Shown: piece by piece, positions 4,952-34,940 of the stretch
How the letters are laid out: every line of letters begins with the position of its first letter
Position numbering within the stretch: position 1 is the stretch's first letter
Source: a virus
IMG/VR virus record: IMGVR_UViG_3300025132_000121
Location: 1 to 36,954 of that record
Length of the DNA stretch: 36,954 nucleotides
Reading direction: 5' to 3' (one strand)
Program-made: the position numbers and the translations under genes
Notes under the pieces: generated by a model
What the model saw: the letters and a program-made list of their open reading frames with translations, nothing else
What the model was told of the DNA's origin: nothing
Database searches by the model: none

Positions 4952-5896
4952 ATGGCCTGGAAGTACAAGCAAGAGCACGTAAAAGACGGGGACGTCGTTG
5001 AGCCATCAGAATGGCGAATCAACGTCAACGAAACTCTATCTGAAATCAATGGCTACTTGGACTCGGACAACATCGCGGAAGGTTCGATTGGTTCCGACCT
5101 GATTCGCAGAAAAACTTTTACTGACGTGTTTTCATCCTCGGTCAATCCGAATCGGTCGTACATTTTCAATCATGAAGGCTCTGGATGGCAAAGAAGAACC
5201 CTGAGTCACATCAGTAAAGATTACAAAGACTTAGGAATGGATCAGAACCCCAGTGAACACACCTCTAGATTCATAGTGGGAGAGGCCCCAGGTATAGATC
5301 CTACGGCATACGATGTAGTCCAAAACGACCAGCTACCTCACATTACCTTCACGCCAGACTCGGACGGTTTACTTATTTGTGAGTTTAACGGCTTTGTCTG
5401 GTGGTCCGGATACAGTACACATCCCGATTTTTTGAATCGTAATAAAAGCTATGACACTACGAGGTTCGACAACCTTCACACGTATGGATTTTTTGCTGAT
5501 CAGAAGAAGTACTTCAAGCACTACTCATCTTATGTGTTGTGTTCTCAGTGGAGATTAGTGGTCAACGGTCAAAGCGTTGCGGAGAGTGGTCCTCTCGGCA
5601 ATGAATACAGATCTCACCCAATCTATTTGTGTGGAGCTGCACCAATACTCAAGAATACTGAAACTCAAGTTCAACTAGAAGCTCAGTTTATTTGGTACTC
5701 GCGTGGCAAGGATCTTGCCATTCAAGCGTCGTCTTACGCTCCTTTGTTCATACACCCATACTCTACGGCATCTAAAGAGCCGGACAGCGACTACGCAAGC
5801 CACAAGGTCACAGACGAAAACTACAATACTCAGACGTACAGAAACGACTGCACACTTCAACATCCGTATCTCACAGCCATTTTTAGGAAGCGATAG
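4952..5896 (+). CDS. Tail/fibre structural protein, family member 1 of 3
   Basis: This 314-aa protein has an N-terminal module of about 50 residues: DGDVVEPSEWRINVNETLSE, then INGYLDSDNIAEGSIG. It reads as a short helix plus a 'leucine/asparagine' linker typical of phage proteins that attach a beta domain to the tail. The rest is rich in Tyr, Ser, Asn, Trp and His and looks beta-structured, with no recognised enzyme motif. The next gene shares the N-terminal plan (GDVVE...IN...L.DEID..NI.E). The start ATG follows CGGGAGATGAC, a cassette repeated before the third family member. Role as a tail appendage is inferred from neighbours. Confidence 0.55.
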   Translation: MAWKYKQEHVKDGDVVEPSEWRINVNETLSEINGYLDSDNIAEGSIGSDLIRRKTFTDVFSSSVNPNRSYIFNHEGSGWQRRTLSHISKDYKDLGMDQNPSEHTSRFIVGEAPGIDPTAYDVVQNDQLPHITFTPDSDGLLICEFNGFVWWSGYSTHPDFLNRNKSYDTTRFDNLHTYGFFADQKKYFKHYSSYVLCSQWRLVVNGQSVAESGPLGNEYRSHPIYLCGAAPILKNTETQVQLEAQFIWYSRGKDLAIQASSYAPLFIHPYSTASKEPDSDYASHKVTDENYNTQTYRNDCTLQHPYLTAIFRKR

Positions 5897-6861
5897 TGCC
5901 CAAAATCACACCACCAGAATTTGTAGAAGGCGATGTTGTTGAGAAGAGAGACATTACGGATCTCAGAGATTCAATCAACAGTAATCTGATTGACGAGATT
6001 GACGGCTCCAACATTCGTGAAGAGGGCTTGGACCGGAGGGTCTTCAAAGAGGGTTCGGTTGTACCTAAGTTCACGACGACACAAAGGTTGTACTCGTCAA
6101 AAATTCAACCCGTTGTTTGTAGTCAGAATTGGAGAATCGTATCTTATGCCACTGCCGACGACCTGAAGGGCAATAAAGACCACCCAACTCAAGCGGTATT
6201 ACCTATTCGATGGAACACGGAAACCGATACCCATTGTGTCATTCGGTTGTCCATGTATGTAGACAGTCAAACCTGCGACAGAAGGCCCATTCACGAAGCG
6301 CAAAACTACTGGGATTTCGGACTGCTTGTCGTTTCTCCTGGCGAGTCGAGGCCTTCTGGATTTCCAACGACTGGATTTGAGCAAATGGCCTCTTTCACCA
6401 AAAACTTCAGGGTGTCGCCGTTTCAAAGAGTGGGCTTGAACAATGCGTTCAATCGAGACCGAACTCAAGGCTATTTCACCAAGGGTCAGTCCAATGCGAT
6501 TCACAGAGCACTGGGCTTGTCCGGTGATTTCGATGAAGCCGATGTTGACAACCAGCGAAGACGAGTAGGCTCATCTGTACCTAGTAGTAATGTTTTTTCC
6601 TACCATGAGGAAACATACCCAAGAGGCGCTTGGTATCAGTACGCATTCGATCGAGCATCTAATTTCAACTCATCGTTTTCCATGACTTGTCATGCGACAA
6701 GCGAATTGAGTAGAGCTTCTGAACTCAATGCTAATTTCATGTGGCCGTTTTCAGGTACAGCGAAAATCTACGTAATGTACAGGTCTAATCTTGCAGGGGC
6801 CACACCTCCTACGCTTGATGTCCACAACCTGAATTTATCAGCTCAAATTTACCGGAGATGA
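5896..6861 (+). CDS. Tail/fibre structural protein, family member 2 of 3
   Basis: This 321-aa protein starts at GTG, overlapping the previous TAG by one base (TAGTG), with AGGAAG upstream; no ATG fits better. The N-terminus (FVEGDVVEKRDITDLRDSIN, then NLIDEIDGSNIREEG) mirrors the preceding protein in motif order and spacing, which argues for duplication of the attachment module. The body is Ser/Asn/Arg-rich, beta-like and contains no recognised catalytic motif. Its C-terminal half (about 225-320) has aromatic strands such as GAWYQYAFDRA and IYVMYRSNL, comparable in style to the neighbours. Overlapping starts imply translational coupling and fixed ratios of the three products. Confidence 0.55.
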   Translation: MPKITPPEFVEGDVVEKRDITDLRDSINSNLIDEIDGSNIREEGLDRRVFKEGSVVPKFTTTQRLYSSKIQPVVCSQNWRIVSYATADDLKGNKDHPTQAVLPIRWNTETDTHCVIRLSMYVDSQTCDRRPIHEAQNYWDFGLLVVSPGESRPSGFPTTGFEQMASFTKNFRVSPFQRVGLNNAFNRDRTQGYFTKGQSNAIHRALGLSGDFDEADVDNQRRRVGSSVPSSNVFSYHEETYPRGAWYQYAFDRASNFNSSFSMTCHATSELSRASELNANFMWPFSGTAKIYVMYRSNLAGATPPTLDVHNLNLSAQIYRR

Positions 6862-13294: not shown

Positions 13295-16200
13295 GTGGCA
13301 GAAGAAACCGAAACATCGACGTTACCGGATGTAGACCCATACGCCGAACTGAAGGCCTATGAAGAAAGCATCTTCGGTGCTGACACTCAACAAGTTGATG
13401 TAGACGACTACCTTGCAAGCACCTTGCGCTCAGACGTGCAGCGTCTACCACAAACGGACGAGGAGGTAGAGCAGCAACAAATCGAGTCGGGGTATATGCC
13501 TCTCCCTGGTCGGGAGATGGACCTTGACCCTGCAACACCCGTTGAAATCGAGGACTACTTCTTCGAGGTGTACGACCACATTTTTCAGGGTCAGCTAAAC
13601 AGGGGCAAGACAGAACAGCAGGCTGAAAAAATTGCCTCAGAGCAAGCACGCAGCGCGCTTATCTACAACCTTGTTGGCGAAGTACCTAAGCCCACCGATC
13701 CTGACGCTAAGGGAATCTTAGCAGCTGGTGGTCGAGTGTTCGGCTCTCGCAAGTTGTACGGCATGAGGGACGCAGATACTCCCAAGAAAGCGTTCGACAT
13801 GCGAATGGAGGAGAATCGAAACGCCGAGCTTGAAATCAGAGAAATGGTTCAAGAAGAAGGCGCGATGGCTGTTCTCGGCAAGGTCTGGGAAGGCAGTGAA
13901 CCGATGACCATCGAAGAGGCTAAGAAGTCAGGTATCGGTATTGATCGTCAGTCTTTCTGGGGACGTGACCGACAAGACGGTGTCGACGATGATGTTTCGT
14001 TCTTCGATGACGCATACATTCCATTTGGCATCAAAAACATTCCTGAGTTGATTGAACGAGCTGCAATCAAAATCAACATACCTGGGATGTTCGCCAACGT
14101 GTTTCTAGACGAAGATGAGCGAGAGGCGTACCTCAAAGAAACCAAGCTTGCACTTCCCACTGAAAACTTCGAGAGAATCGTCGAGACTGTTGAGCTCGCT
14201 CATGAAAAGGGATTGAACGACAAGCAAATTGAGGACCAGCTCGGCGACGAAATAGGTTCTACATTGATGCAGCAGTCGTTTGACGATTTGCCGTCCGGCT
14301 TTCAAGTCGCAAAACCGTCTGTAGACCTGTTCAAAAAATCGGTGAACGCCAACAACGACCGCTTCACATTGTCCAACAACGATCAACTCAGGGGTGCTGC
14401 ACTTCTTGTTCAGGAAGGCGCCTCTGATAAGGTCATCCAGAAAGCGTTGAATGATGTGTCGTTCGGAGCACTACCAGAAGAGGTATGGGCCGGTTCAGTG
14501 CGTTCGACGGTCCCCTTGGTGCGGCAGTCTATCGAAACTGCCAAGCGGGTGATTGAAGCTAAGGGTGATGCAGGAAGAGCTGCGCGGGTTCTTGAAAAGG
14601 GCATCGAGTCGACCTTGTTCAGTGCCGAACAGGTCGGCGATGAAATCAAGGTGATGGAAAACACCTTGGGCAAGGCGCTCCGCATGCTGGGTGTCTTCAC
14701 CGAAGGAGTCGCAGAGATTGACGGCACATTTGGACTCACAGAGGATGCGGTCAAACAAAAACTCAAAGCAGTGGGATTGCCAGAGGAACTCTCTATTCTC
14801 CCTGGTCTCGGCGTCGGTAATATACTCAACGTCACCCCAGCATCAAGAGACTTCTATTTCAACTACGGCATGCGAGACATGGACTCTACGTGGTTGTCAC
14901 GAACGCTTGCTAATATTGAGACTGGCAATGTTGGATTCACTACACACTTGACGAACGAGGCGAGAAAGGACGGATTTGAACGAGGCACACCAGAGTTTCA
15001 CACCAAGCTTTTTATTGGTGGCGCTCTGGACTTCTTGGTGCCTTGGGAAAAGCTGCATCTCGCACCAGTGGCACACACAACCAAAGCTGCAGCTCGTGGA
15101 GCATCACTGACACGCAAGCTAAACGTGTCGGGGTATCGTGGACGTGCGTTCTTGGCGGGGTTCTCTCCTGCCATGTACAACCGTATTTACAAGACTTTTG
15201 AGCGAGCGTCTTTGGCTGCAGACAATATTCGAAGGCGACTGCCTGATGAAATTGATGCCCCGGCACTCAAAAGCTTGTTGGACCAAGACGATGCGTTTCG
15301 TGCAGCTCAGGATGTAGATGTCGAAGTTGCGGTTGATGACGTTGCGACTGACTTCCGACCCTTGACCTACACGGAACGTAAGTTTGCAGACCAAATCTTT
15401 GATCAGATGCAGGCAGGAAAGACCTTCGACGATGCGTCCGAAGCCATCAAGGATGGTTATTCACCGGACGTATTTGAGACTGCAGCTGACGTAACAGAGT
15501 CTGCTGTTCGTCATGTCATTGAGACTGAAGAGGGCATAGGACTATTTCCTTCTGGTAAACCGGGTACTCCTGAGTATCGACCAGGCGCCATACCGTTTGA
15601 GGTTGACCAACAGACCAAGCGTGTCCTTGCCGCAGCAGGCATTCGATACGAGGACATTAGAGATCAACTTGGAAAGCTCGCTGCATCTAATGCAGACGAG
15701 TACACCAAAAATCTACGTGCATTTTCGGCTATGGGTGCAGACGAAGACACTTTAGAACTTCGCAACTCAAAGCCCTACAAAAAAGTACGAGATCAACTCG
15801 ACAAGCTTGTAGAAGATGGCGACATGACCCCTGAAGAGAAGGTCACGCTGCTTGCCATGATGGAGACACGAGCTCACAACACCTCGGGTGTTGAGACAAT
15901 GTACAAGAAGATAAAAGACCCGGAGAGCTACTTCGAAGCAACGACCATTGAACGAGTTGCGACAAAGCTCGATGACGGCTCTGATGGACCGCCAGCGTTT
16001 AAAATTAAGACCACGCTCAGTAAAAATGCCGCCGATGAAATATCGATGAACAGCGTCAAGCAGCTGATCGATATCTTTGCCGACGAAGACACGCTCTCGA
16101 TGACAAGATTGCTGGACAATGATCTGGAGCTTTTGGTTGATTTGATGGGCAAACGATGGACAGCGGAGTTCATCAAAAACAAGATCGGTAATACTAAGCC

Positions 16201-19200
16201 ACGAGAAATACAGCCGAACAAGATGCCGTCAAATACGCTCAACGAGGCAGGTAAGACAATATTCGAGCGAAGATTAAGAACGCTTATTGAGGGCAGTGGT
16301 CGTCTGGGTGCAGACACCGTCTCTATGCGTGAGCTGTTGGCCAACCTTACATCGGTGTACGCGAGAATGGGTGACGGGGCAAAGGCCGCAATCATTCCGT
16401 CTATTACGAAGAGAGCAAACCTAAACGAGTTGTTGAAGCCGGACCGTTTCTTCCGGCCTGACATTATCAACCGAAATGTGGGTAGGCCCAATCGTCCGGG
16501 CACCATGGTTCGTGTCAGTGGAGACCTCTCAGCTCGTATCAGTGAGGGGCGAAGAGCCAAAACAGGTCGTAAGCGTGTTTTCGCAGATGTTGACGCGCAG
16601 CCGGAGTACGTAAAACAGGCTCTTGGTATCACCGACGACATGCAAGAAGTCGATGCCGTAGACGTATACGCTCGAGCTATTGGGTACGTGGTCGCTGAGA
16701 CCATGAAGAAAGAAGAGGCATCCAAGGCTCTTCGTGGCATGGATTTGGTGAATCTGACATCTGCTACCTTTGTGACAAGAGAGAAGGCCAAGAGCATTAG
16801 AAGGAGCGTCAACGCACGTTTGGCATCTGTGCTCGGCATCTCAAATCGCAGTAAGATCTCTGGTATTACCTACCTCGATGCGAAAAAGCTTAAAGGTATA
16901 GCCGATGCTAAATCAAACACCATCAGTCTGAACGAGACTCAACAGGCGAGCTTCAAGGTATTCATACAGAGATTAGCATCGGAGCCATTTGTTGCGACTC
17001 GAATGCCGCAAGAGCTCGTCGGTCCAGGCGCCAAGCTAGATTCAATCTCGTTTGAAAACTACAACCGTGTAGTTGAACTGATGCAAGATGTTGAGGCTGG
17101 GGCTTTTGCTCGTCGAACGGTCTATACGGAGGCTATTTCTAAGTCTCTCGCGTACTCATTGCTCGGTGCATTTAGGTCTGGTCCTATTGCTAAAATATCC
17201 GGCCCGATACCTCCGCTGAATAAGTTCGTGACCGGAGTCGAGAGGATGTTCAAACTGGACGACCCGCTCTCTGCTGTGCGACCAGAACTAAAGGAACTGC
17301 TTAGGAGAGAGCTCACTAAGCTGGAGAATGTGCGTAGTGACGTAATCAAGATCGCTAGAGATGCTCGTCGACAAAAACCCGACGCAACTATCGAGCAGAT
17401 TTTCGATTCACTTCGGAATCAACTTGAAGGCGACATGATGATGACGCCAGACCAAGTTGAGATTCTGCTTGGTAACGTCGAACTTTTCACCGACAAGGGC
17501 GAATACATAGGCAAGCAAGGACTCTTGTCTATATTCAACGAATTTACTACGGCTGAGATTGCAAGAATAGATGCCGAGTTTGCGGCATCTGAGCAAGCCA
17601 AGGGCGTAGACGTTGCTCCACAACAACTGAAGCCGTCACAGGCAGAAATCATTGCATCGGAAGATGTGATGACTCCAGATCAGTTTATCGAGGGTTTGAG
17701 CTCTGGAAAAAAGTTGCCTTCTCCAATTATTGAAGGTGAAAGTCGACTGCAGTACCTCACCAAATCTTCGACTCGGGCACTACTTCAAGACCTTTGCTCA
17801 AGTGGTAGCTTCCACGGTTTGCCGGAAGAAATAAACACAGCACTTACGCTGCTTGAAAGGTACTCGACGGATGAAGGACTTACAGCTGCTGCGGTGGCTA
17901 AGTTGGATGACGTTGAACGAATCTCTATTGCAGATTCGCTCTTCACAATTCAAGAAGAACTCGAGCGCCGAGCTAAGTACGTCCGAAACCGAGGTCAAAC
18001 CATACTGACGGCAATGAGTGGAGAAACAAGAGACGCCGCAAAGAACGTGGACACTGTTCAACTCGCTCATGCGTACAGGTTGTTTCATCAGGGCGGTAAA
18101 GGTTGGCAGCAGTTGTACGATTTCGTACAAAGCCAAGGTGCCGATTTGGGCTTGGACGTAGACAAGATCGGCAAGTTTAGTCCAGCTCAAGCGTTTCTTG
18201 AAATGACTGTTCGACTCATGGCAGAGGACAAGTTGTTGGGCTTGTACGATGTGATGGTCCAGCACGGCATGCCTGGTGCAAACGTGAACTACCGGATGCC
18301 GAAAAAGATTGTGTCACCAACCGGAGCTGAGGTCTCGATTGAGCGCAGTCATGCGTTTTATGATCGGGTCAGAGCCTACATGGACCAAATCTTCAAGGCT
18401 AACGACATTACAGAGGTGGTCGAGGCTACAGCAGACGCACCCGAACGCATCCGGAAGCCTCGCGTGCCCACAGGCAGTCAAGATGTGAAGTATCGATTCG
18501 CAGCTTTCGAAGAGAAGGGTGATGAAGTCACAGGCAACTTCCATGATCTTGATGCTCAACTTGCTGCTGAAGAAGCTCTTGTCCGATTCGGTGTACGCAC
18601 TCTGACTAATGGTCAGGAACTAGACACTATAGTTTTTCCAGATGGCAGCGTCACATACGGGCCTAAGGGTATCAAAGACGAGATTGATCAAGCACTCCTG
18701 AGAGCTGCATCGGTCGGTAAGGCTTTTGGAAGCGAGGCTGCTGAGCGCCTGAGAGTTGCCGACGTAGGAGCTCCGTTCGTACCCGGTGAAAAAACCACCA
18801 CAGTGAAAAACTACAGCAGAGTAGCCAATGCCATCACTGCTTTGGCTGAAATATTTCCGATTACATTCACAAACATCAAGCGTGGTGTGACAACTGGTCT
18901 GTTCATACCTAACCCTGCTTACTACACAGCAAACTTTATGGGTGGCGCACTACAGCTCGTCACCGCTGTGAACCCAGTGAAGGGTTTCTCGATGTTGACC
19001 AAGAATCCAAAGATGGTTGGTGCAGTCGTTGCACGGATGTTTGGGGAAGGCACACACAGGCCGTTTGGAAACAAGATTTTGGTCGCCAAGAACGGCATGA
19101 TCTACAACGCCGACCAGATTGCAGACATGGCTATTGCTTATCGGTTGAACTCAAGTTTCATTCAGGCCGAAACGCAGCGGTCCATGGCCGAAGATATCAA

Positions 19201-20401
19201 GCTTTACCTTAAGCAAAATCCTACCAAGCTTCAGAAAGCCAAACGGTTTGCTACTGCTTGGAATGATCAGTTGGCGGAAGTCGCTACAGCACTCGACAAC
19301 TTCTATCGTGTGTCGATTTTTGTAGATGGCTTGAACGACGGTGTGTCTCCTGGTCAAGCAGCTGGCCTCGCAAGACGAGCTGCATTTGACTACAGTGCGC
19401 TTACCGATTTCGAGCAACGCATCATGCGTAACACCATCATGTTTTACAGCTACATGCGTAAAAACATGGACCTGTTCTTCGATGCTCTCCTTACTGACCC
19501 GTCTCGAGTCACGAACCAGCTCCGACTGACAAATGGCTTGCATCGAGCAAACTTAGATGACGAGTCACAAGTTGTTTTGCCTGAGTACATTCAAGCACGA
19601 TTAGGAGTTGCTACGGCAAAACCGATTATCAACAAGCACGTCAACAGTGCTCGTATGTACGTACTGCCTAACACTCCAATCATGGATTCAATGAATCTAA
19701 TGATTGACACGTATGACGCAGTGCGTGGAAATGCTGACGCCGCTCGAATGTTGTTTAGCAAAGTTACCCCTTGGTATCAGGCGCCTGCGGTGTTTGCTCT
19801 TGGCGTAGACCCGTTCTATGGTGGTGAGGTAGACCGCTACAACAAGATACCTGCGTGGCTTATGGAGTGGGACTTGGCCGTAACGGGTGGTCAGCTCGGA
19901 CTGTTGTTGGAAGTGGAGAGAGAAAGCAACAGAAACGACAGATTGAGAACTTCACACGACGACTCTTACAGGCAGTTCTACAACGCCAAGAACGGTAAGC
20001 TTTGGTGGGCCTATCGCAATTTGCTTCAAATACCTGGTACTGGTCGCTCCATGAGCATCATTACACAAGTAGACCAAGCAAATTTGGGAATCGTAGAGGC
20101 GATCACCGATATGCTCCGTACTGCCCGACTTGAAGCTGAAGAACTTGGACTAGCTGATGAGAAAGACCGTGAGTGGGAGTTCATCGACGGCGACACCATG
20201 AGCCCTAAGGTTGGCCTCACACCACTCGATCATATTCTAGGTATTGGTGGAGTTCGTACCACCTTAGTACCGAATGTACAGTTTGCTCGCGAAAGAGCCC
20301 TCAAAGACTTACGTAGAGAATACAGGAAGAGATTCCCTCAAAGCCAAGACCCATTCGAGCAACGAGCTCAACAGCGTCAGTTTGACCCAGGCGAGTTTTA
20401 G
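13295..20401 (+). CDS. Giant virion protein (2368 aa), putative ejection protein
   Basis: GTG start with weak AGGG upstream; no better start was seen. The N-terminal 1000 residues are acidic and helical with no catalytic motif that I recognise. The C-terminal third contains the most distinctive block: NPAYYTANFMGG (about 1873-1884), then a Lys/Gln-rich helix region, then FDYSALTDFEQRIMRNTIMF and FYSYMRKNMDLFFDAL (about 2030-2067). 'Phe-Asp-Tyr...Phe-Glu...Met-Arg...Phe-Tyr...Arg-Lys-Asn' recurs in very large phage structural proteins of otherwise different N-termini; its exact role is unknown to me. Size, position and helical nature suggest a protein ejected with the DNA. I saw no lysozyme, transglycosylase or RNA polymerase motif. 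Confidence 0.65.
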   Translation: MAEETETSTLPDVDPYAELKAYEESIFGADTQQVDVDDYLASTLRSDVQRLPQTDEEVEQQQIESGYMPLPGREMDLDPATPVEIEDYFFEVYDHIFQGQLNRGKTEQQAEKIASEQARSALIYNLVGEVPKPTDPDAKGILAAGGRVFGSRKLYGMRDADTPKKAFDMRMEENRNAELEIREMVQEEGAMAVLGKVWEGSEPMTIEEAKKSGIGIDRQSFWGRDRQDGVDDDVSFFDDAYIPFGIKNIPELIERAAIKINIPGMFANVFLDEDEREAYLKETKLALPTENFERIVETVELAHEKGLNDKQIEDQLGDEIGSTLMQQSFDDLPSGFQVAKPSVDLFKKSVNANNDRFTLSNNDQLRGAALLVQEGASDKVIQKALNDVSFGALPEEVWAGSVRSTVPLVRQSIETAKRVIEAKGDAGRAARVLEKGIESTLFSAEQVGDEIKVMENTLGKALRMLGVFTEGVAEIDGTFGLTEDAVKQKLKAVGLPEELSILPGLGVGNILNVTPASRDFYFNYGMRDMDSTWLSRTLANIETGNVGFTTHLTNEARKDGFERGTPEFHTKLFIGGALDFLVPWEKLHLAPVAHTTKAAARGASLTRKLNVSGYRGRAFLAGFSPAMYNRIYKTFERASLAADNIRRRLPDEIDAPALKSLLDQDDAFRAAQDVDVEVAVDDVATDFRPLTYTERKFADQIFDQMQAGKTFDDASEAIKDGYSPDVFETAADVTESAVRHVIETEEGIGLFPSGKPGTPEYRPGAIPFEVDQQTKRVLAAAGIRYEDIRDQLGKLAASNADEYTKNLRAFSAMGADEDTLELRNSKPYKKVRDQLDKLVEDGDMTPEEKVTLLAMMETRAHNTSGVETMYKKIKDPESYFEATTIERVATKLDDGSDGPPAFKIKTTLSKNAADEISMNSVKQLIDIFADEDTLSMTRLLDNDLELLVDLMGKRWTAEFIKNKIGNTKPREIQPNKMPSNTLNEAGKTIFERRLRTLIEGSGRLGADTVSMRELLANLTSVYARMGDGAKAAIIPSITKRANLNELLKPDRFFRPDIINRNVGRPNRPGTMVRVSGDLSARISEGRRAKTGRKRVFADVDAQPEYVKQALGITDDMQEVDAVDVYARAIGYVVAETMKKEEASKALRGMDLVNLTSATFVTREKAKSIRRSVNARLASVLGISNRSKISGITYLDAKKLKGIADAKSNTISLNETQQASFKVFIQRLASEPFVATRMPQELVGPGAKLDSISFENYNRVVELMQDVEAGAFARRTVYTEAISKSLAYSLLGAFRSGPIAKISGPIPPLNKFVTGVERMFKLDDPLSAVRPELKELLRRELTKLENVRSDVIKIARDARRQKPDATIEQIFDSLRNQLEGDMMMTPDQVEILLGNVELFTDKGEYIGKQGLLSIFNEFTTAEIARIDAEFAASEQAKGVDVAPQQLKPSQAEIIASEDVMTPDQFIEGLSSGKKLPSPIIEGESRLQYLTKSSTRALLQDLCSSGSFHGLPEEINTALTLLERYSTDEGLTAAAVAKLDDVERISIADSLFTIQEELERRAKYVRNRGQTILTAMSGETRDAAKNVDTVQLAHAYRLFHQGGKGWQQLYDFVQSQGADLGLDVDKIGKFSPAQAFLEMTVRLMAEDKLLGLYDVMVQHGMPGANVNYRMPKKIVSPTGAEVSIERSHAFYDRVRAYMDQIFKANDITEVVEATADAPERIRKPRVPTGSQDVKYRFAAFEEKGDEVTGNFHDLDAQLAAEEALVRFGVRTLTNGQELDTIVFPDGSVTYGPKGIKDEIDQALLRAASVGKAFGSEAAERLRVADVGAPFVPGEKTTTVKNYSRVANAITALAEIFPITFTNIKRGVTTGLFIPNPAYYTANFMGGALQLVTAVNPVKGFSMLTKNPKMVGAVVARMFGEGTHRPFGNKILVAKNGMIYNADQIADMAIAYRLNSSFIQAETQRSMAEDIKLYLKQNPTKLQKAKRFATAWNDQLAEVATALDNFYRVSIFVDGLNDGVSPGQAAGLARRAAFDYSALTDFEQRIMRNTIMFYSYMRKNMDLFFDALLTDPSRVTNQLRLTNGLHRANLDDESQVVLPEYIQARLGVATAKPIINKHVNSARMYVLPNTPIMDSMNLMIDTYDAVRGNADAARMLFSKVTPWYQAPAVFALGVDPFYGGEVDRYNKIPAWLMEWDLAVTGGQLGLLLEVERESNRNDRLRTSHDDSYRQFYNAKNGKLWWAYRNLLQIPGTGRSMSIITQVDQANLGIVEAITDMLRTARLEAEELGLADEKDREWEFIDGDTMSPKVGLTPLDHILGIGGVRTTLVPNVQFARERALKDLRREYRKRFPQSQDPFEQRAQQRQFDPGEF

Positions 20402-32176: not shown

Positions 32177-32188
32177 GTGTGCTCCTTA
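32174..32188 (-). promoter_or_regulatory. Start cassette TAAGGAGCACACATG (copy 5)
   Basis: One base different from copy 1 (A for T after GGAGC); joins recT to the next gene. Confidence 0.7.
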
Positions 32189-33070
32189 TGAGGTGAAATC
32201 TTCTTCTGGCTCTGGCAAGTCATTTGCCTGAGCTCGTTCAACCAAATCCTTCACTTTCGTCTTCCTCTTACGCTTAGGCTTGGCTTCTTGAACTTCAATA
32301 ACATTTTCTGCTTCTTTCGTGTTGTCCGTTTCGGTAACATCGGATTGAAATGAGGCATCAATAATGTTTGGCTCGTTGAAGTCACTATTGATGTCGTGAG
32401 CAACCACTGCCTTTGTTTTTGGTGAAAGCGGAAGGTACTTGCAGATGCGACGTACAACAGTCTTGCGCCACATCTCTTCAGTATGCTGGGCCCATGGACC
32501 GGAATCGGGATTACGAGAAGACTTTCGAATCTTGTTGATTTGATCACGACGCATGACTTCTACTTGGTGACCGCCGTTATTGAAATGAGCCACGGCATAT
32601 GCAAGTCGTAGTGGACCTGGGTCACCATCGAAGAACTGCTTGTGGTGCAACTTCTTACCGCCATCTAGATCGAACGAGCACTCAAACTCGTCCTTCTCGT
32701 AAACGATTTCAGCTGTAAAGTGAGACACATCACCAGAACGGAGAACGAGCTCCATCAGTCCCGTGTACTCAATCCACAGCTCAGCGTCATAAGTCTTCTT
32801 CGACTTGTTCCACATAGGAACCAAGGAAGCGCGATGAAGTGCTCCACCCGCAACGAGGTCCAGTTCACAGGCCTTGGCCAGTGCCATGTACACTGACGTC
32901 GGACTGCACTGAACCAAACGCTCGTTCTTCGATGCCTCAAACATTGCGGTGCGGATGATTCGGTCCACATCTGCACCGTTTGGCGCCACACTCACGAGGC
33001 TGCTTTTCTTCTTTTCCAAGAAATCGTTGAGATGTACAAGTTTGTCTCTGGTAGTCAATGCTGTAGTCAT
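32186..33070 (-). CDS. recT: RecT family single-strand annealing protein
   Basis: This 294-aa protein shows the RecT pattern: CSPTSVYMALAKACELDLVA (about 55-74), then a RASLVPMWN strand, ELWIEYTGLMELVLRSGDV (about 97-115), and a Lys/Arg-rich helical region with WAQHTEEMWRKTVVRRICKY near 195. It should anneal complementary single strands in phage recombination or replication, working with the exonuclease whose stop codon overlaps its ATG by 4 nt (ATGA). The C-terminus (about 245-294) is a variable acidic/basic tail with KPKRKRKTK. Length fits the family (typically about 250-320). Confidence 0.9.
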   Translation of the reverse strand: MTTALTTRDKLVHLNDFLEKKKSSLVSVAPNGADVDRIIRTAMFEASKNERLVQCSPTSVYMALAKACELDLVAGGALHRASLVPMWNKSKKTYDAELWIEYTGLMELVLRSGDVSHFTAEIVYEKDEFECSFDLDGGKKLHHKQFFDGDPGPLRLAYAVAHFNNGGHQVEVMRRDQINKIRKSSRNPDSGPWAQHTEEMWRKTVVRRICKYLPLSPKTKAVVAHDINSDFNEPNIIDASFQSDVTETDNTKEAENVIEVQEAKPKRKRKTKVKDLVERAQANDLPEPEEDFTS

Positions 33071-34023
33071 GTTGCCTCTTTTACTCGCAAGATGCGATTA
33101 CCTGGTTTCTCGACGACGAACTTGTCGTAAAGCTTGGGGTGTTTTTCACGGAAGGAGTCCTTGTCGAACACCTTTCTCGGCTTGCTCTGCTTCCAAGTGG
33201 CTACACCCGCAATACCACTATCGTCGCCAATCTTTGCCCTCATCAGATTCTCCATCTCGCGCCTCTCGACATCGAGCTGTTTAATCTGCTTTTTGACGGC
33301 AACGAGTTTTTCGTGAAGGTCTTTTTCAGCCACCGTGGCAACTCGAGGGGGTTCATCTTTGACTCTTGGATTCATTGCCGTCAGGACCGCTTTACATGCG
33401 TCTGTAGCATCCACATCGGGGGGCACTTCGGCTTCCACATGTTTGTCCCACCATGCTTGAGCCACGTCTAGTATCGCCTCCCCCAGCTGCTTGTCCCGCT
33501 GCAGTCTATACACCCTGAAGTCGTCGAGACTGAACAGGGTTGCGATGTCCCAGTATGGGGCGTCAAAGATCTCCATGTAGACACGCATCTGAATCTCTAC
33601 ATCTAGTGGGACATCAGTAGTTCCTGAGTCTCCCCAGCCGTACCGAAACCGACGTGTCTTTGCGTCCATGCCGAACCGCACACCATCTTTTTCACATAGG
33701 CGATCTGGTGTACCGAAAATGCGTGGCCGAGTGGGATGCCATGTCAGTCCTTCTTCCCAGAGCTTGCAACCTTCCCCAAGATGGAGCTCATAAAATTCAC
33801 AGACATACTTTTCCATCACCCGGCCACGCAACAAGATTGCGTTGTCGATGTCATCAGTCGAATAAAGACCTGTCTTTTCGGACCAAAGCTTGAAGAGGCT
33901 GTTCTCAAACGAGCCGAGCTTCTCTGACTCGTCAGCTCCAGCCATCATAATTGCTGCGATGTCTGTGCCACCCAAGCCTTTACGGCGCTCTGCCAGCCAC
34001 GCTTCGCGTTCTGCTTGATCCAT
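33067..34023 (-). CDS. YqaJ / lambda-exonuclease-type nuclease
   Basis: ATG 34023 (MDQAEREAWL) is preferred over the ORF start at 34095 because GAGAGGA lies 4 nt upstream. The 318-aa protein begins WLAERRKGLGGTDIAAIMM, the usual GG(S/T)DIAAI motif, followed by IFGTPDRLC (metal-binding Asp) and GMDAKTRRFRYGW: the E-x-K site reads D-A-K here. A central QMRVYMEI region and a C-terminal coiled coil (VKKQIKQLDVERREMENLMR) complete it. It degrades one DNA strand 5' to 3' and feeds RecT, whose gene overlaps. The paired genes are a classic two-component recombination set. Confidence 0.88.
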   Translation of the reverse strand: MDQAEREAWLAERRKGLGGTDIAAIMMAGADESEKLGSFENSLFKLWSEKTGLYSTDDIDNAILLRGRVMEKYVCEFYELHLGEGCKLWEEGLTWHPTRPRIFGTPDRLCEKDGVRFGMDAKTRRFRYGWGDSGTTDVPLDVEIQMRVYMEIFDAPYWDIATLFSLDDFRVYRLQRDKQLGEAILDVAQAWWDKHVEAEVPPDVDATDACKAVLTAMNPRVKDEPPRVATVAEKDLHEKLVAVKKQIKQLDVERREMENLMRAKIGDDSGIAGVATWKQSKPRKVFDKDSFREKHPKLYDKFVVEKPGNRILRVKEAT

Positions 34024-34042: not shown

Positions 34043-34071
34043 AGAGTACTGAGTATCACAATGTGTGTCAA
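34043..34071 (-). promoter_or_regulatory. Putative leftward promoter for the exo-recT operon
   Basis: On the - strand, TTGACA (34071-34066) is followed after 17 bp by TACTCT (34048-34043). It has a perfect -35 and a weak -10. It lies 20 nt before the exonuclease start and faces a + strand gene starting at 34138, so this short region probably holds divergent promoters and operators. Confidence 0.5.
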
Positions 34072-34137
34072 CTGGCCACACCCGCATGTAGACAAAACGC
34101 AGCCATTCCGATACTGTAACGACCAAAGGTGTGTCGC

Positions 34138-34377
34138 ATGGTCATATCCGAGTACAGAAAAAGTCTCCCTGGTAAGAGCACTCGCGTAAGTTTCGTGACA
34201 TGGCTCAACGGTGAGCTCGTCAACTTCGATATGAAAATCAGTATCGGCTATCTCAGAGACCTTGAGTATGGTCGCAAAACACCATCACTGCCTCTTGCAA
34301 TCGGCATTGAACGAGCAACTGGCGGTATCGTCTCAGTAAGAGAATGGCCGGGGTTATCGCCTCGGCTACGTTTATGA
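34138..34377 (+). CDS. Cro/CI-like helix-turn-helix DNA-binding protein
   Basis: ATG at 34138 follows AAAGGTG; a GTG at 34129 is an alternative. The 79-aa product contains STRVSFVTWLNGELVNFDMK, then ISIGYLRDLEYGRKTPSLPL (about 34-53) and IERATGGIVSVREWPGLSP. The pattern 'SxxYLRDLExGRKxPSLxLAxxIExATGGxVxxxxW' matches Cro/YdaS-type HTH regulators. As a divergently transcribed neighbour of exo-recT it may control that operon through the 114-nt intergenic region. It is short, so the DNA-binding helices make up nearly the whole protein. Confidence 0.75.
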   Translation: MVISEYRKSLPGKSTRVSFVTWLNGELVNFDMKISIGYLRDLEYGRKTPSLPLAIGIERATGGIVSVREWPGLSPRLRL

Positions 34378-34388
34378 TTGGAGCAAAC

Positions 34389-34706
34389 ATGAGTTTGAAA
34401 GACAAAGTACAAGCGATTCGCCAGGCCCGTAAGCCCGGTCGTTTCATCATCCCCGGCTACGATACAAACGATGTGTTGAACACGTTGTTTGGGTACGTAG
34501 AGGAACTCGAGTCTGGCGCGTCGGAAGTAGAATCCTTGCGTGTCAAGGTCGGCATCTTAGAGGCGAAGATCGAATCAGGTCCTGACAAGAAGTTCGGCAC
34601 CAAAGATGACAAGGTGACTCTCAGCAAGGCTAAGAAGGCACCTGCCAAGCGCAAGCCTGCAGCAAAGAAGCCAGCTGCAAAGAAGAAGCCAACTGCAAAG
34701 AAGTAG
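34389..34706 (+). CDS. Histone-H1-like basic protein
   Basis: ATG at 34389 follows TTGGAGC; an upstream in-frame ATG at 34344 would overlap the HTH gene and lacks an SD. The 105-aa product has an N-terminal helical part (SLKDKVQAIRQARKPG), a coiled-coil-like segment (VESLRVKVGILEAKIE), and from about 75 a Lys/Ala/Pro tail with three imperfect repeats of PAAKK (AKRKPAAKKPAAKKKPTAKK). This tail is of histone-H1 type and should bind DNA by charge. It may help condense or protect phage DNA or act with the HTH protein next to it. Confidence 0.7.
   Translation: MSLKDKVQAIRQARKPGRFIIPGYDTNDVLNTLFGYVEELESGASEVESLRVKVGILEAKIESGPDKKFGTKDDKVTLSKAKKAPAKRKPAAKKPAAKKKPTAKK
34656..34703 (+). repeat. 15-nt repeats encoding PAAKK-type tail
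   Basis: CCTGCAGCAAAGAAG (34656-34670), CCAGCTGCAAAGAAG (34671-34685) and CCAACTGCAAAGAAG (34689-34703) are near-identical units that encode the basic tail. Confidence 0.8.
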
Positions 34707-34709
34707 CAG

Positions 34710-34940
34710 TCACATCTCGGTTTCGTCGGATGTGGACAGGAGTAGTTGCAACGCTACTTCTGTCTGCACTTTTTTGATGTGGTCTTCAACCACGTCTTCG
34801 ACGTGACTGTGAAGAATAGAGCTCACGACGCACTCTCCATCTTCGTCCATGACCTTTATGTAGGTATCGTCCGTTTCGACGTGCCAAGGATGTGGCTGTT
34901 GCCACTGGTCTCGAATGCTTTTGAGTTCTGACTTCATCAT
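34710..34940 (-). CDS. Small acidic unknown protein
   Basis: This 76-aa protein starts by 4-nt overlap with the upstream gene (ATGA). It has DQWQQPHPWHVETDDTYIKV (about 11-30), DEDGECVVSS and an amphipathic helix (SHVEDVVEDHIKKVQTEVAL). The pattern 'W-x-V...D-x-G-x-x-V' resembles small phage accessory proteins, but no family is recognised. It converges on the H1-like gene with only a 3-nt gap between the stop codons, leaving no room for a terminator. Confidence 0.5.
   Translation of the reverse strand: MMKSELKSIRDQWQQPHPWHVETDDTYIKVMDEDGECVVSSILHSHVEDVVEDHIKKVQTEVALQLLLSTSDETEM

Follow-up and report, generated by a model that had tools for sequence, protein, structure and literature searches.

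A predicted YdaS-like regulator and a variable histone-H1-tailed protein encoded opposite exo-recT in a phage group from metagenomes

The locus and its conservation

The window analyzed here is the whole of IMG/VR virus record IMGVR_UViG_3300025132_000121 (36,954 bases). Two genes on its + strand are flanked by leftward genes. The first (34138–34377) encodes a helix-turn-helix (HTH) protein of 79 aa from an ATG start, with a GTG three codons upstream also open. The second, hereafter gene 2 (34389–34706, ATG start), encodes a small basic protein of 105 aa with a histone-H1-like C-terminal tail, and an in-frame ATG further upstream would give a product of 120 aa. To the left, the genes for a YqaJ/RecE-like exonuclease (exo, 33067–34023, − strand; Pfam YqaJ 3e-9, phrog_434 2.8e-59) and a RecT-like annealing protein (32186–33070, − strand; Pfam RecT 5.5e-35) both point away from the pair. 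To the right, the small gene g76 (34710–34940, − strand), which is convergent with gene 2, is accompanied by g197 and a VapE-like helicase/primase gene, all of them leftward and pointing towards the pair. The earlier note had described a two-gene + strand cassette amid leftward operons, encoding an HTH protein and a basic protein with a PAAKK tail; both ORFs are present, and the pair does converge on the VapE-side operon. The divergence from exo-recT, with a perfect TTGACA, was also described correctly, the hexamer being exact on the minus strand (34071–34066). The ORF lists, inspected by eye for approximately 29.1–36.9 kb, contained no further gene-like + strand ORF, and the longer + strand ORFs of this region overlap minus-strand genes. 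An ORF of 2368 aa was observed elsewhere in the window, inside a rightward gene block (13295–20401).

Scanning IMG/VR with the HTH protein identified 67 viral loci, and a profile of the HTH alignment retrieved the same 67 contigs. These loci are not independent, as many are near-copies, and the number of unique upstream stretches is 45. The exo gene adjoins the HTH gene on the opposite strand in all 67, with an additional HTH gene in between in L066. A complete gene 2 was found downstream of the HTH gene in 63 of the 67 loci: 60 with an ATG start and a Lys-rich tail, plus L057–L059, in which the gene was called by script from a GTG start 272 nt past the HTH gene. L057 alone of these three was inspected further, and a minus-strand reading frame fills its 272-nt gap. 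Gene 2 is cut off by the contig end in L032, and no gene 2 adjoins the HTH gene in L065, L066, and L067 (3/67), which keep exo and HTH; the sequence available for L065 and L066 covers about 450–480 nt past the HTH gene. Inspection by eye suggests that two loci at greater distance, L076 (2639–4450) and L077, also have exo, HTH, gene 2, and a small opposite g76-like gene in that order, followed by a helicase-like ORF in place of g197 and VapE. Two unlike gene 2 heads, used as queries, retrieved 7 and 11 loci, and all 18 lie on HTH-bearing contigs.

The pair is an old, syntenic part of this phage group and no recent insertion. The search for the pair in related phages that the earlier note had proposed was positive, with the complete pair beside exo in 63 of 67 loci. 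The description of the pair as the only + strand insertion stands for the strand, no other + strand gene having been seen at approximately 29.1–36.9 kb, but not for the insertion. Searches of INPHARED with the HTH protein returned two cyanophage proteins (53% cover, E 9e-3), the gene 2 head matched no phage in that collection, and the one virion protein searched there gave three distant partial matches. Literature searches of open-licence PMC turned up no paper on such a pair of HTH and H1-tailed proteins.

The HTH protein and the operator-like site

The AlphaFold2 model of the HTH protein, built from a 28-row alignment, has five helices and a pLDDT of 90.3, and displays the helical HTH fold of the lambda-repressor type, with weak sequence matches. 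The top Foldseek match was YdaS (8co2, E 0.087, probability 0.99, 30% identity), and no match reached an E value of 0.001. VIA-align ranked the N-terminal domain of TP901-1 CI first (3zhi, Z 8.3) and YdaS 8co2 fifth (Z 6.8), Z values of 7–8 being frequent among unrelated proteins and able to mirror a common helical arrangement. Pfam HTH_3 was matched by 23 of 28 HTH members at E ≤ 0.1 (best 8.8e-4), and the HTH protein of the window itself scored 14.5 bits, under the curated cut-off of 23 bits. Among sequence matches to the PDB, DdrO was best (E 0.0038, 21 residues), and YdaS had an E value of 0.019 over 55 profile positions.

The TP901-1 CI N-terminal domain (3zhi, 5a7l) superposed best in VIA-align, with an rmsd of 2.2 over 67 residues, but the identity is 10%; CI has a further C-terminal part, whereas the phage protein ends after the DNA-binding fold. 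The match to DdrO of Deinococcus (6rnz, 6rmq; VIA-align Z 5.3) is short, lying around the recognition helix, and DdrO is, by the name of its PDB entry, a cellular regulator. YdaS of prophage CP-933P (8co2/8c7k), the best Foldseek match, shares 30–32% identity over 69–77 alignment columns. In the published account of that system (PMC8630535), YdaS occupies sites over two divergent promoters, its own being bound at higher concentration, and a second gene lies downstream on the same strand, as here. Here, however, the HTH gene faces exo-recT rather than a CI-type repressor gene, no prophage setting was found for it, and there is one GTGTGKC-N5-GMCACAC site plus a half-site, in place of several inverted repeats with the consensus GTTTAGTAA. 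On the basis of fold, a conserved DNA site, and these weak sequence matches, the HTH protein is predicted to be a YdaS-like repressor of the Cro/CI fold.

The proposed site is an operator-like palindrome, GTGTGTC-N5-GCCACAC, at 34063–34081 in the 114-bp gap between exo and the HTH gene. In 45 unique sequences, 13 of the 19 columns of the palindrome (GTGTGTCAACTGGCCACAC) are at least 90% conserved, with a mean of 0.93 against 0.70 for the whole gap, whereas such columns number 1 of 14 in the adjacent promoter spacer and 0 of 7 on the other side. The palindrome contains the −35 box TTGACA (34066–34071, − strand) of a putative leftward promoter, PL, which would serve exo-recT with exo as its first gene. 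Of 44 unique loci, 41 have TTGACA as this box and the other 3 have TTGACG; its GTCAA is invariant (20/20 aligned). The −10 box of PL, TACTCT (34043–34048, − strand), follows a 17-nt spacer and conforms to TA---T in 39/44 loci and to TA in 44/44 at fixed spacing. Next to the palindrome lies a putative rightward promoter, PR, with the −35 box TAGACA (34089–34094, + strand; five of six columns at least 90% conserved, T[GA]GACA in 38/44) and, after a 17-nt spacer, the −10 box TACTGT (34112–34117, + strand; TA---T in 41/44 at fixed spacing). Because a pattern was used to find the −35 boxes, their presence is to some extent built in; this does not apply to the −10 boxes at fixed spacing. Both −10 boxes are poor, and neither PL nor PR was listed by a general promoter scan. 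A half-site, GTGTGTC (34129–34135, + strand), precedes the HTH start and overlaps the likely ribosome-binding region. Of 44 unique loci, 33 have GTGTG[TG]C within the last 13 nt before the HTH start, a pattern found in 0.24% of random windows of that length, and three of the nine columns at 34127–34135 are at least 90% conserved (mean 0.85). A conserved palindrome over the −35 box of PL with PR adjoining is the divergent-promoter arrangement, at the sequence level, of Cro/CI regulators.

The palindrome is unremarkable in one sequence, as 702 of 1000 shuffles of the gap gave an equal or better inverted repeat, and a claim of single-sequence significance was dropped; the case for the site is based on conservation and co-occurrence. 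The exact pattern GTGTGTCAANNNGCCACAC (16 fixed bases) is present on 57 IMG/VR contigs, 54 of which are HTH contigs. In the available stretches of the other three, an HTH profile search gave no match better than E 0.13. Thirteen HTH contigs lack the exact form: five (L033, L045–L048) carry the symmetrical GTGTGTC-N5-GACACAC, L052 differs at the first base, L057–L059 and L067 have divergent forms, and the −35 box of L062–L064, whose HTH identity is 58%, is the place of another palindrome, TGTCAATAGTTGACA. In these last three loci, site and protein look as if they had changed together. The exact site is retained in L065 and L066, two of the loci with no gene 2 adjoining HTH. It was found once each in 17 of 20 records and was absent from G004–G006. 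Five matches with one or two mismatches elsewhere in the 20 records were discarded as meaningless, since the pattern read backwards matches likewise in 11 of the 20 records. The palindrome could serve RNA polymerase or a factor other than the HTH protein. Since the HTH gene adjoins a conserved operator-like site containing the −35 box of exo-recT, and since the pair is conserved, the HTH protein very probably regulates early transcription. The earlier note had suggested that an H1-type tail next to a small regulator points to a DNA-architecture switch that could control early transcription; such control now appears apt for the HTH protein and its site, in which we place it, and less likely for gene 2.

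A temperate-phage reading of these features would make the HTH protein the CI or Cro of a lysogeny switch and gene 2 a CII-like partner, as in YdaS-YdaT. In its favor, the nearest fold relatives, YdaS and a CI domain, come from temperate phages, and a Cro-like gene followed by that of a small DNA-binding protein resembles ydaS-ydaT as described in PMC8630535. The gene opposing HTH is exo; among the few loci with ORFs listed, L066 alone has an extra small HTH-like gene between exo and HTH (5659–5952 of that contig, − strand, by eye), where a CI-type gene would sit. Against this, none of 20 records, which are contigs whose completeness is not stated (the longest 70.8 kb), yielded a tyrosine integrase or resolvase, and none of 8 a ParA; Pfam searches with 36 gene 2 members gave no YdaT-like family. 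A genome-collection scan left a single stretch, from Ensifer, and its 22-residue match was judged to be a chance reading across genes of the other strand. We consider a lysogeny switch rather unlikely, and our own reading is of a lytic phage relying on a Cro-like protein alone.

Architecture and variation of gene 2

The gene 2 protein, with a computed pI of 10.0, is predicted to consist of three parts, in a model of weak overall confidence (pLDDT 67). The N-terminal part (34389–34520, + strand) contains two predicted helices (residues 3–13 and 26–44), with pLDDT values of 85–89 in the block of residues 1–40. A middle module (34533–34628, + strand), VKVGILEAKI..DKKFGTKDDKVTL, is modeled as low-confidence beta strands and is present or absent among relatives; its GPDKKFGTKDD sequence may resemble the Asp-rich motifs of calcium-binding repeats. 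The tail (34629–34703, + strand) is probably disordered, as judged from its composition and a pLDDT of about 45–46. The last 25 residues, AKKAPAKRKPAAKKPAAKKKPTAKK, comprise 11 K, 8 A, 4 P, 1 R, and 1 T, in repeats of the AKKPAA type. Such a Lys/Ala/Pro-rich repeat tail is a feature of histone-H1-like/Hc2 proteins, and the low pLDDT is consistent with disorder. Pfam HC2 (histone H1-like) was matched by 5 of 36 gene 2 relatives at E ≤ 0.01, whereas matches to CCDC53 and Rep_fac_C were read as reflecting Lys/Ala/Pro composition. A fold search with the low-confidence model returned nothing under E 0.6.

A helical N-terminal part joined to a Lys/Ala/Pro repeat tail is also the layout of AlgP/PhaF and Hc2-type proteins. 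In PMC9239181, peptides of the AlgP KPAA repeats are said to bind DNA in vitro, and the disordered part of AlgP is given as 195 aa, against about 25 aa for the tail of gene 2. No relation between the N-terminal parts was found, and gene 2, unlike those genes, is a phage gene. T4 MotB, described in PMC6070864 as an early phage protein that binds DNA with no detectable sequence specificity, offers an analogy of role only. By analogy, the tail of gene 2 is likely to bind DNA, and the earlier note was right to draw attention to it.

Gene 2 is coding but fast-evolving. Over 741 pairs from 39 loci, median amino-acid identity was highest for HTH (0.80), followed by RecT (0.74), exo (0.70), and gene 2 (0.53), HTH identity exceeding that of exo in 728 of the 741 pairs and that of RecT in 627. 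The median dN/dS, obtained from the unsaturated pairs, most of the 741 being saturated at silent sites, was 0.086 for HTH, 0.074 for exo, 0.048 for RecT, and 0.23 for gene 2. The HTH value is not below those of exo or RecT, so the higher identity of HTH is no proof of special constraint on it.

The head of gene 2 falls into two main classes, and 8 class changes were counted on the exo tree of 55 loci, at least 6 of them forced by well-supported branches; this count leaves out L062–L064 and becomes 9 if these are placed in class A. Shuffled head labels gave a mean of 11.3–11.4 changes, so the class label still partly follows the tree. The middle module changed 5 times on the same tree. Close pairs were defined by exo genes of equal length and at least 93% identity, and those with no difference in either exo or gene 2 were dropped; in 9 of the 21 pairs listed, gene 2 identity fell more than 10 points below that of exo. 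The clearest case is L011 against L060: the flanking genes are 98.4–99.8% identical, the HTH proteins 98.7%, and the palindrome site identical, whereas the gene 2 proteins are 69.9% identical with 40 gaps. The divergent stretch opens with an indel of a single base, a few bases ahead of the gene 2 start codon, and runs to the stop codon, and nothing closer than 69% to the head of L011 was found among the loci examined. Smaller divergences, within the gene, were seen for L049/L051 and L014/L023; other close pairs, L010/L013 and L038–L041 among them, show none of this kind. Ordinary phage mosaicism can account for such allele differences, and diversifying selection on gene 2 is possible.

These alleles bear on a second alternative, in which the two genes form a toxin-antitoxin or defense-type pair, the HTH protein being an autoregulating antitoxin and gene 2 the toxin. 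Xre-type HTH antitoxins exist; the two-gene layout, the short gap, and a site ahead of the first gene would all suit such a pair, and the weak fold matches of the low-confidence gene 2 model include PfiAT and ParD-ParE chains, at E values of 0.75 and above. However, unlike gene 2 alleles stand behind the near-identical HTH genes of L011 and L060, which indicates no joint change, exo and HTH occur with no gene 2 adjoining in 3 of 67 loci, and the palindrome sits over the exo promoter. In PADLOC, gene 2 went unmatched both in the window and in L010, and the HTH protein had just a 0.052 match to an HTH model. No known toxin family was found in gene 2 with Pfam, PADLOC, and NCBIfam, searches by which a new type of toxin could be missed. 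We regard a toxin-antitoxin pair as very improbable.

In a third possibility, gene 2 would be an accessory gene of the ordinary mosaic sort with no role in control. Its tail would aid solubility or act as a tether to nucleic acid, and the HTH protein alone would matter for the switch. Fast evolution, allele differences between near-identical phages, and the three loci with no adjoining copy are all in keeping with this, and it is compatible with the HTH half of the explanation that we prefer. Conversely, an MSLK-type start and a Lys-rich tail recur in most aligned gene 2 relatives, and both head searches led exclusively to HTH-bearing contigs. We consider this a quite credible reading of gene 2, if at somewhat less than even odds.

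A candidate switch and its cargo

Past gene 2, a terminator-like hairpin with a T run (34731–34768, + strand) lies inside the 3′ end of g76. Its consensus stem has 8 pairs, 4 of them with changes on both sides, in 20 loci picked from the single clade showing the hairpin, with L004 and a second clade left out; it overlaps the coding end of g76, and codon constraint may explain part of its conservation. A scan for perfectly paired terminators found a candidate, in some cases weak, in 24 of 61 gene 2 rows (L076 included) and none in the other 37. Three terminator-like hairpins were found in all, on both strands, against 0.7 expected in shuffles. A second such hairpin (34345–34368) was observed at the 3′ end of the HTH gene, ahead of gene 2, and would argue against a single full-length transcript of both genes.

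The explanation that we prefer, with a probability of roughly 0.64, is a Cro-like switch of the YdaS type acting on exo-recT and on itself, with gene 2 as a co-transcribed gene for a nucleic-acid-binding protein. The analysis establishes the two genes, the conservation of the sites, their promoter-like geometry, the fold prediction, and the allele differences; binding, repression, timing, and a role for gene 2 are inferred, as follows. The HTH protein would bind the palindrome at 34063–34081 and mask the −35 box of PL, so that exo-recT would be turned off after an early burst. It would also act on its own promoter, PR, through the half-site at 34129–34135. PR would transcribe HTH and gene 2 together, the transcript ending at the hairpin at 34731–34768. 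The gene 2 protein would bind nucleic acid non-specifically through its Lys/Ala/Pro tail, and its variable helical head would decide what is brought to, or displaced from, the DNA. Such a switch looks like a variant of the known Cro-like kind.

Rather than a component of the switch, gene 2 is more likely to be a cargo that the regulated transcript carries, to judge from the loci with no adjoining copy (L065–L067) and from the strong divergence between the phages with identical sites (L011/L060). It is best regarded as a variable, co-expressed, and probably DNA-binding product. A more specific idea, which we put forward as speculative and on balance doubtful, is that gene 2 encodes a swappable early DNA-coating effector, in which a constant tail would anchor on host or phage DNA, a head exchanged as a cassette would answer host defenses or nucleoid proteins, and the switch of HTH and operator would time its dose with the recombination genes.

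For a phage group that this analysis met in metagenome contigs alone, the locus offers a testable candidate switch, consisting of a protein, a site, and promoters. Behind its constant promoter stands a natural series of alleles that encode H1-tailed proteins, and the exchange of these alleles is the part most worth experiment: if the heads are host-specific effectors, the differences among near-identical phages would reveal their targets.
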